Under the pieces are notes generated by a model. That model saw only the letters and a program-made list of their open reading frames with translations. It was not told the DNA's origin and did no database searches. Position numbers and translations under genes: made by a program. From the NCBI GenBank assembly GCA_001801995.1, contig MGZB01000055.1:39129-103128 (forward strand): a stretch of 64,000 bases of DNA, written 5' to 3'. This DNA comes from Gammaproteobacteria bacterium RIFOXYD12_FULL_61_37 (GTDB taxonomy: Bacteria > Pseudomonadota > Gammaproteobacteria > Chromatiales > Chromatiaceae). This document shows positions 43,791 to 44,958 of this stretch, one piece after another. Numbering within the stretch: the stretch's first letter is position 1; each line of letters starts with the position of its first letter.

Positions 43791-43828
43791 AGGCGTCTCC
43801 CGCTTTTTGTTTCTAATTAAGAGAGGCT

Positions 43829-43957
43829 ATGCAAGCGTTTCGAGATGCCTCCGAGTTTACTCTTCGTGGCCCCTTCATGAAGGAAATAGGCATTTCGCTC
43901 ATCGTCGCCGGTGTCGTCGTCCTCAATCTCTTTTCCAATACCGTTTCTCACCCATGA
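43829..43957 (+). CDS. possible small membrane peptide (42 aa)
   Basis: ATG 43829 to TGA 43957: MQAFRDASEFTLRGPF, then MKEIGISLIVAGVVVLNLF, a single predicted membrane helix. The start has only GAGAGG 2 nt before it, too close, while an internal ATG (43877) lacks any site. It ends 9 nt before the first attC, the position expected of a gene in an integron cassette. Could be non-coding. Confidence 0.35.
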   Translation: MQAFRDASEFTLRGPFMKEIGISLIVAGVVVLNLFSNTVSHP

Positions 43958-43966
43958 CCATGAGCC

Positions 43967-44032
43967 GCCCAACCCATCATTCCACCGGACCGGCTAAAAA
44001 AACAGCGCAGGCCGTTCACTTCTACGTTGGGC
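43967..44032 (+). other. integron attC site 1
   Basis: Outer boxes R'' GCCCAAC (43967-43973) and R' GTTGGGC (44026-44032) are perfectly complementary and fit the RYYYAAC/GTTRRRY consensus. The right side TTCACTTCTAC before R' follows the usual attC pattern (TxAACTTxxAC). Inner L boxes pair only moderately. 66 bp, within the attC size range. Confidence 0.7.
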
Positions 44033-44537
44033 GTCGTAATATCTGCCTCGTCGATTTATGGAGCGAGCCTAATGGCAATGAAACCCACCACCATCGATGA
44101 ATACCTTTCAGGTATCAGCGAAGACAAACGGGCCGCGCTTGAGCAACTGCGAAAAGTCATTGCAGCCGCAGCGCCGAAGGCCGAAGAGTGCATCAGCTAT
44201 CAACTTCCCGCGTTTCGCCTTGATGGGAAACTACTGGTGGCGTTCGGGGCGGCAGCACACCACTGCGCCCTTTATCCAATGAGTGCTTTCTGCGTGGAAG
44301 CCCATGCAAGTGAGCTCAAAGATTACAAAACCAGTAAAGGCACCATTCAGTTTCAGGCGGAGCAACCTTTGCCGGCGGCTCTTGTGCGGAAGTTGGTGAA
44401 GGCACGTATCGCAGAGAATCGCGCTGCTGAATGAACAGCTTCCGCAACAACATCATGTATTTCGCCGCGTCGTCCAACCCGGCGTTGCAGGGGACGCTGC
44501 TCGATAAAGCGTTGTATAGCGCCCCTGAACTTGAACG
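44027..44537 (+). mobile_element. integron gene cassette carrying a DUF1801 gene
   Basis: DNA between the recombination points (after the G of GTT) of attC site 1 and attC site 2: one promoterless-type cassette with one gene (44072-44434) and its own attC, as in a cassette array. No integron integrase or attI is in the window, so it is a CALIN-like array fragment. Confidence 0.65.
44072..44434 (+). CDS. DUF1801/YdhG-like (frataxin-like fold) protein (120 aa)
   Basis: MAMKPTTIDEYLSGISEDKR, LEQLRKVIAAAAPKAEECISYQLPAFRLDG, and LLVAFGAAAHHCALYP are, in parts, the family pattern of the YdhG/YjdI-like DUF1801 proteins, some called iron chaperones. The C-terminal part (SKGTIQFQAEQPLPAALVRKLVKAR) is also typical. 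Start 44072 has GGAG 8 nt upstream; 44078 is also possible. It sits inside an integron cassette. Biochemical role unknown. Codon use is less GC-rich than the flanking chromosomal genes. Confidence 0.82.
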   Translation: MAMKPTTIDEYLSGISEDKRAALEQLRKVIAAAAPKAEECISYQLPAFRLDGKLLVAFGAAAHHCALYPMSAFCVEAHASELKDYKTSKGTIQFQAEQPLPAALVRKLVKARIAENRAAE

Positions 44538-44543
44538 TTATGC
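44472..44543 (+). other. integron attC site 2
   Basis: R'' GTCCAAC (44472-44478) fits RYYYAAC. R' reads GTTATGC (44537-44543). The inner arms GCAGGGGACGC and GCGCCCCTGAAC pair strongly, and CTGAACTTGAAC precedes R', as in many attC sites. R'/R'' mismatch at the distal bases is expected when the next cassette boundary differs. 72 bp. Confidence 0.65.
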
Positions 44544-44775
44544 ATAAACGAAACGGTGATTTCCATGCTTGATTCAGCAATAGAAAAGTTGATCTATGGA
44601 CATCCCGTTAAGAAAGCATTAGAGGGAACATTTTCCAATTAATCATCTAGCCGATTCGCCCTGGGGATGACCATGGCACGGGGCTCCCGGAATTCCATCC
44701 TTGGACCCTTTGCCGGTGCATCCCTGCACCACTTCTCGCTACGCTCCTTCCGGGCTACGGGCTAAAGTCTTTGAC
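44544..44775. other. post-attC intergenic region with truncated reading frame
   Basis: ATG 44565 opens a 25-codon frame (MLDSAIEKLIYGHPVKKALE, ending TFSN, TAA 44640-44642) that looks like the truncated start of a further cassette gene. No family recognised. The rest, up to the DUF2892 stop, shows no gene. Confidence 0.4.
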
Positions 44776-44958
44776 CTACTTGTTGGTATTGATGCCCAAC
44801 AGGGGATAGAAGGGACAGAAGTTGATCAGGCCAGTGGCCAAAGGCACCACGCCGATATAGCCCCAGATGGGCAGAACACCCAGCGCAGTCGCGGCGATCA
44901 ACGCCACACCGACCACAATTCGCAGGATTCGATCGATACCGCCAACGTTTTTTTGCAT
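44776..44958 (-). CDS. DUF2892 inner-membrane protein (60 aa)
   Basis: MQKNVGGIDRILRIVVGVAL, then two hydrophobic stretches ending INFCPFYPLLGINT is the DUF2892 pattern, as in the C-terminus of YgaP-type rhodanese proteins. Two membrane helices joined at GVLPIWGYIG. Often found near sulfur-metabolism or Crp/Fnr genes, and a Crp/Fnr regulator gene lies 76 nt upstream on the same strand. Function unknown. Confidence 0.82.
   Translation of the reverse strand: MQKNVGGIDRILRIVVGVALIAATALGVLPIWGYIGVVPLATGLINFCPFYPLLGINTNK

Follow-up and report, generated by a model that had tools for sequence, protein, structure and literature searches.

The locus lies between a Lon-like gene and a YgaP-like gene in a 64-kb window (the whole stretch of DNA analysed here, C55:39129-103128, where C55 is the contig) and holds two attC sites, a complete gene cassette with a DUF1801 gene, a gene stump ahead of the first site and a short reading frame behind the second. 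The coordinates of these features are listed in Table 1. The Lon-like gene noted earlier beside the array is present, with a LonB-type AAA domain plus Lon_C, and is an ordinary neighbour.

Table 1. Features of the array, in window positions, with the matches or composition of each
Feature	Position	Strand	Match or remark
3' stump of SMR-type (qac/EmrE-like) efflux gene, truncated cassette, 42-aa frame	43829..43957	+	NF033137
attC site 1	43967..44032	+	R1 29.8 bits, E 2.7e-5; R2 28.4 bits, E 2.4e-5
Complete gene cassette	44027..44537	+	Runs from TTGGGC, just past the site 1 G^TT crossover, as far as the G that precedes the crossover of site 2
DUF1801 (YdhG-like) gene, 120 aa	44072..44434	+	PF08818 62.9 bits (cut-off 27.2), E 3.9e-17
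attC site 2 (of the DUF1801 cassette)	44472..44543	+	R1 35.8 bits, E 8.3e-7; R2 28.1 bits, E 3e-5
25-aa frame, perhaps the 5' remnant of another cassette	44565..44642	+	35% GC vs 61% in the window

The frame before site 1 had been described as that of a small membrane peptide. The frame stands, but its reading as an independent small membrane protein was rejected, since its last 23 residues are the C-terminus of an SMR pump. It matches the SMR_qac_int model (E 2.6e-4) at profile positions 87-109 of 109, that is, over the last ~23 residues, and five further SMR models agree at the same end. In tblastn comparisons with annotated SMR transporters the identity was 58-73% over 22-31 aa, the length on which the SMR assignment rests. 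SMR/qac genes are classic integron cassettes, and the stump resembles the qac/SMR cassettes of class 1 integrons in that the gene ends a few bases before attC, with its stop codon nine bases upstream of site 1. Unlike in those cassettes, just the last ~23 codons are present here, and no close DNA match to a known qac cassette was found. The 5' part of the gene would have been lost; no other SMR_qac piece occurred above chance in the whole assembly, and a search of plasmid DNA with the array returned two attC matches only, with no qac cassette carrying the stump.

Behind site 2, the 25-aa frame starts 21 bases past the end of the site and had no family or sequence match in profile and sequence searches. 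A third cassette may begin with it. The earlier proposal that the array once extended into more cassettes at either end is supported on the left by the SMR stump, and is suggested on the right by the low-GC frame after the crossover.

Detection of the attC sites

Two home-made covariance models, R1 and R2, stood in for the IntegronFinder model attC_4.cm, and the attC bit scores given here belong to these two models. R1 was trained on both arms of 16 attC sites, with the window excluded. The training sites came from arrays of related genomes, a Shewanella plasmid, a class 1 GES integron and, for one of them, the neighbourhood of the genome's own intI. Some of these sites had originally been found through their likeness to site 1; the held-out model R2 therefore comprises 11 sites, all those found via likeness to site 1 or its close relatives having been removed. 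The models were built from attC arms with N loops, as a whole-site MAFFT alignment misplaced the L' box.

On both strands of the 64 kb, sites 1 and 2 were the sole matches of R1 at E<=10, and the same two sites were again the sole matches of R2 in the 64 kb at that threshold. With filters off, the runner-up of R2 in 6 kb scored 9.4 bits vs 28 for the two sites. Both models thereby recovered exactly the two sites that the initial annotation had placed here, and the covariance-model check proposed with them was carried out with the substitute models. The sites lie on the same strand, 440 bp apart. Rfam scans at the gathering score and at E<=1 gave no family matching either of them. Site 2, with GTTATGC as its R' box, escaped a scan for the strict R-box pattern. 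Both attC sites are genuine and not chance matches.

The R boxes of site 1 (GCCCAAC/GTTGGGC) are complementary at all seven positions and both follow the consensus RYYYAAC/GTTRRRY exactly. Those of site 2 (GTCCAAC/GTTATGC) match this consensus fully in R'' and at all but one position in R', and are complementary at four of seven positions. The last six bases of site 2 are not those of its own cassette but belong to the following cassette or flank. When its R'' box is instead set against the opening bases of its own cassette (G+TTGGGC), as in the excised circle, six of seven positions pair, as would be the case for a site whose end is supplied by the unit that follows it. The L stem of site 2 is long, with one extra base; that of site 1 has only ~5 pairs left, and three pairs are non-standard against the model.

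The DUF1801 cassette and its Gallionella counterpart

The initial annotation saw a complete DUF1801 cassette framed by the two attC sites, and this view was confirmed by the PF08818 match and by the presence of the exact unit in a Gallionella integron. The predicted protein has a putative YdhG-like fold and structurally solved relatives (2kl4 and 9t2w). A protein search of 84,980 species genomes returned one near-identical relative, in a Gallionella metagenome-assembled genome (92% over 116 residues), with a drop to 76% for the next-best relative; a search of plasmids returned distant relatives only. The closest relatives outside Gallionella (<=76% identity; loci L092-L170) belong to Acidobacteria, Planctomycetota and Verrucomicrobia, not Proteobacteria, and a few of these loci (L107, L096, L117, L094) have attC-like matches 0.7-3 kb off.

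The Gallionella locus (Gallionella sp. STA_17, JAQTLM010000027.1; L091) is a complete integron with the DUF1801 gene as its third cassette. A full integrase gene on the opposite strand is followed by cupin-like, OsmC-like, DUF1801, nuclease-like and HNH-like genes and more, the names of the neighbours being read from their translations, and R1 placed attC sites at 2364, 2893, 3398, 3892 and 4475. Its IntI is 61% identical to that of the genome studied here. At the DNA level, 477 of the 511 cassette positions (44027-44537) are identical (93.3%), and identity outside the cassette is 30% left of site 1 and 27% right of site 2. Between the two loci, the attC ahead of the unit is 70% identical; it is part of another cassette. 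The right edge of the homology is exactly the GTT of the site 2 R' box, the IntI crossover G^TT, and both loci have 505 bp between the attC starts and attC lengths of 66/72 bp. The Gallionella integron thus shares with the array the same cassette and a homologous attC; it differs in being an intact array beside its own intI, with other neighbouring cassettes and intact attC copies.

Integron cassettes are excised and inserted as circles by the integrase IntI, which binds attC as a folded bottom strand and cleaves it at G^TT. Sharp homology boundaries at G^TT are what IntI-mediated exchange leaves. The DUF1801 unit is bounded by G^TT crossovers and present as a unit in a second integron, the properties of a gene cassette; judged from the sequences, it is a bona fide mobile cassette, shared by two genera with the same exact limits and among different genes in each. 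It was probably acquired from a shared environmental cassette pool via IntI, and would have passed undivided between a Gallionella-like iron oxidiser and a distantly related lineage. The two DUF1801 genes differ by 13 synonymous and nine nonsynonymous changes (dN/dS 0.2), and the protein appears to have been under purifying selection for at least part of its history. A literature search found no paper linking DUF1801 with an integron, or Gallionella with integron cassettes.

Folding of the bottom strand, which had also been suggested as a check, was less telling: taken by themselves, sites 1 and 2 fold only modestly better than shuffles (z -1.35 and -1.7), and plain strand folding tells nothing, its outcome being governed by spacer and loop lengths. 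The fold of site 1 is weak (z -0.93). The Gallionella homologue of site 2 is a textbook attC, with 46.2 bits under R1 and a bottom-strand fold of z -6.2, whereas the fold of site 2 of the window, taken in its circular form, has a z of only -2.0. The weaker fold is due to lost pairs in the inner stem, and the mobility of site 2 is therefore probably reduced, yet the site could still be driven in trans.

That the sites are chance or non-integron inverted repeats (REP elements, a terminator or other palindromes) beside an ordinary DUF1801 gene is extremely improbable and was ruled out: the modest folds fit such repeats, but the sequence-plus-structure models including the held-out R2, the same unit in the Gallionella integron and the precise boundaries all oppose them.

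The integrase and other attC sites of the genome

The initial annotation called the array integrase-less and recommended a search of the genome for intI. Within the 64-kb window the description is correct, as no TIGR02249 match above the cut-off was found there. It fails for the genome: an intI gene lies on the array's own contig, 166 kb from the array (C55:249371-250312). It encodes 338 aa without stops, scores about 472-473 bits against TIGR02249 (cut-off 265) and is apparently intact and full-length. An array that is integrase-less within a 64-kb window thus need not be so within its genome. Beside intI are one strong attC (51.8 bits) and a second that is degraded but recognisable. The integron to which this integrase belongs (C55:240000-259900; locus L005, 6442-10316) consists of intI and then cassettes with mostly degraded attC, and by reading of the translations the cassettes carry a gene for a zinc-ribbon-like protein and BrnT-like, CopG-like and RelE/ParE-like genes that read as toxin-antitoxin-like.

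Besides the sites on C55, more than 12 further candidate attC sites, missed by the initial annotation, occur on seven other contigs (C3, C10, C15, C30, C40, C41 and C44), none of which carries an IntI above the cut-off. At a contig end (C44:1-720; L019/L077), a degraded attC (19 bits) that is a cousin of site 2 is followed by what reads as a BrnT/BrnA-like toxin-antitoxin pair. Two other loci (C3:25564-29129, L188, and C41:73455-74991, L190) have three attC sites each and no integrase above the cut-off on their contigs, and are further CALINs. The sister genome (G001) has nine attC sites, and integron integrases above the cut-off are present in 27 of 55 related genomes. Together, the intI gene, the scattered attC sites and the proportion of relatives with an integrase show that integrons are common in the family. 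The distant IntI could in principle mobilise the array in trans.

IntegronFinder 2.0 defines a CALIN as at least two attC sites without an integrase (PMC9024848), and the array, with two co-oriented attC sites and the nearest integrase 166 kb away, agrees with that definition and with the original CALIN reading. We consider it almost certain that the locus is a two-site CALIN, an integron array relic composed of an SMR stump with its attC, the DUF1801 cassette and perhaps the start of a third cassette; the reduced GC content also counts in favour of this reading. The array would later have been separated from an integrase and then eroded. It is small and eroded, as CALINs have been proposed to be, with a complete cassette between its co-oriented sites and no nearby intI; it differs in having just two sites, flanks that are stumps, an apparently hybrid site 1 with a damaged L stem, and a distant intI. 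CALINs are regarded by the IntegronFinder authors as degraded integrons and were counted at 2961 against 2760 complete integrons (PMC9024848). In Xanthomonas, about half of the genomes studied have CALINs outside the intI locus (PMC12444791). These are likewise small and located at other chromosomal loci, with intI kept elsewhere; by contrast, the array described here sits where synteny with the sister genome breaks off, at a position not known to be conserved between species. The array is an ordinary relic, and CALINs of its sort are well known.

Site 1 and the origin of the array

The two halves of site 1 have different affinities, a feature that the initial annotation had missed. The first 24 nt are identical to an attC of the sister genome (G001:C52), the 3' half of which differs (12/26). 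The 3' half of site 1, on the other hand, matches the attC of the class 1 GES array at 24 of 26 positions and the type found on G001:C208 at 23 of 26, and the 5' halves of these two differ from site 1 (19/25 and 20/25, respectively). Compared in this way, site 1 looks like a hybrid, a fusion of two attC types within the loop. A fusion inside the attC loop is not a product of IntI; a deletion between two attC sites would yield one. Site 1 was probably remade by such a loop-to-loop deletion away from the IntI crossover, which would have broken its L stem.

The surroundings of the array were compared with one sister genome, of the same genus. On the left, homology to it ends at 43814, a position 15 bp before the ATG of the stump and, for the Lon-like gene, 24 bp upstream of its start codon; on the right it resumes at 44776, on a different contig of the sister genome with different neighbours. 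The Lon-like and YgaP-like genes that flank the array lie apart in the sister genome, where glnD adjoins the YgaP-like gene. In the genome studied here glnD is found at a distance of 72 kb and in the opposite orientation, the arrangement that an inversion would leave. The apparent ~72-kb inversion (C55:83900-158900 vs G001 C167) has its breakpoints at the array and at the 3' end of glnD.

How the relic came to lie here admits several accounts. It is possible, though short of probable, that the array was split from a larger one by a chromosomal rearrangement with a breakpoint inside the array. Its position exactly at the synteny break, with glnD reversed 72 kb away, and the truncated gene on its left (maybe also on its right) fit a cut array. 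Against such a split, a search for attC at the other breakpoint found none, the remainder of the SMR gene is absent from the assembly, and the RND gene on the other side of Lon in the sister genome lacks a clear orthologue in the genome studied; moreover, a single comparison genome cannot tell which gene order is ancestral.

Direct insertion in trans, by which IntI would have placed the cassettes at an attG-like chromosomal site between the Lon-like and YgaP-like genes without any integron having been split or abandoned, we regard as rather unlikely. It would draw on the intact-looking intI 166 kb away, and it agrees with the attC sites on seven other contigs, all without IntI above the cut-off. 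Cassette insertion at non-integron attG sites has been demonstrated experimentally (Loot et al. 2024, as cited in PMC12444791 and PMC12901181). However, the array ends on the left in a gene stump and not in a clean G^TT junction, the sister genome ceases to be homologous 15 bp before the stump's ATG, so that no clean empty site can be read, and the flanks are non-adjacent there.

More speculative, and quite unlikely in our estimate, is that attC sites here acted as ordinary recombination sites independent of IntI, with a loop-to-loop deletion giving the hybrid site 1 and the ~72-kb inversion having its breakpoint in the array. If this were true, attC repeats dispersed through the genome would give rise to rearrangements in the family, apart from cassette exchange. 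By whichever route the CALIN relic arose, its hybrid attC and its synteny break suggest the question of whether scattered attC sites promote rearrangement.

The intergenic DNA to the right of the array also holds, at 44692-44737, an element of ~45 bp (GGACCCTTTGCCGGTGCATCCCTGCACC...) that is repeated at 84-87% identity on contigs C1, C15, C24 and C55 and in the sister genome, and that resembles a REP-type dispersed repeat.
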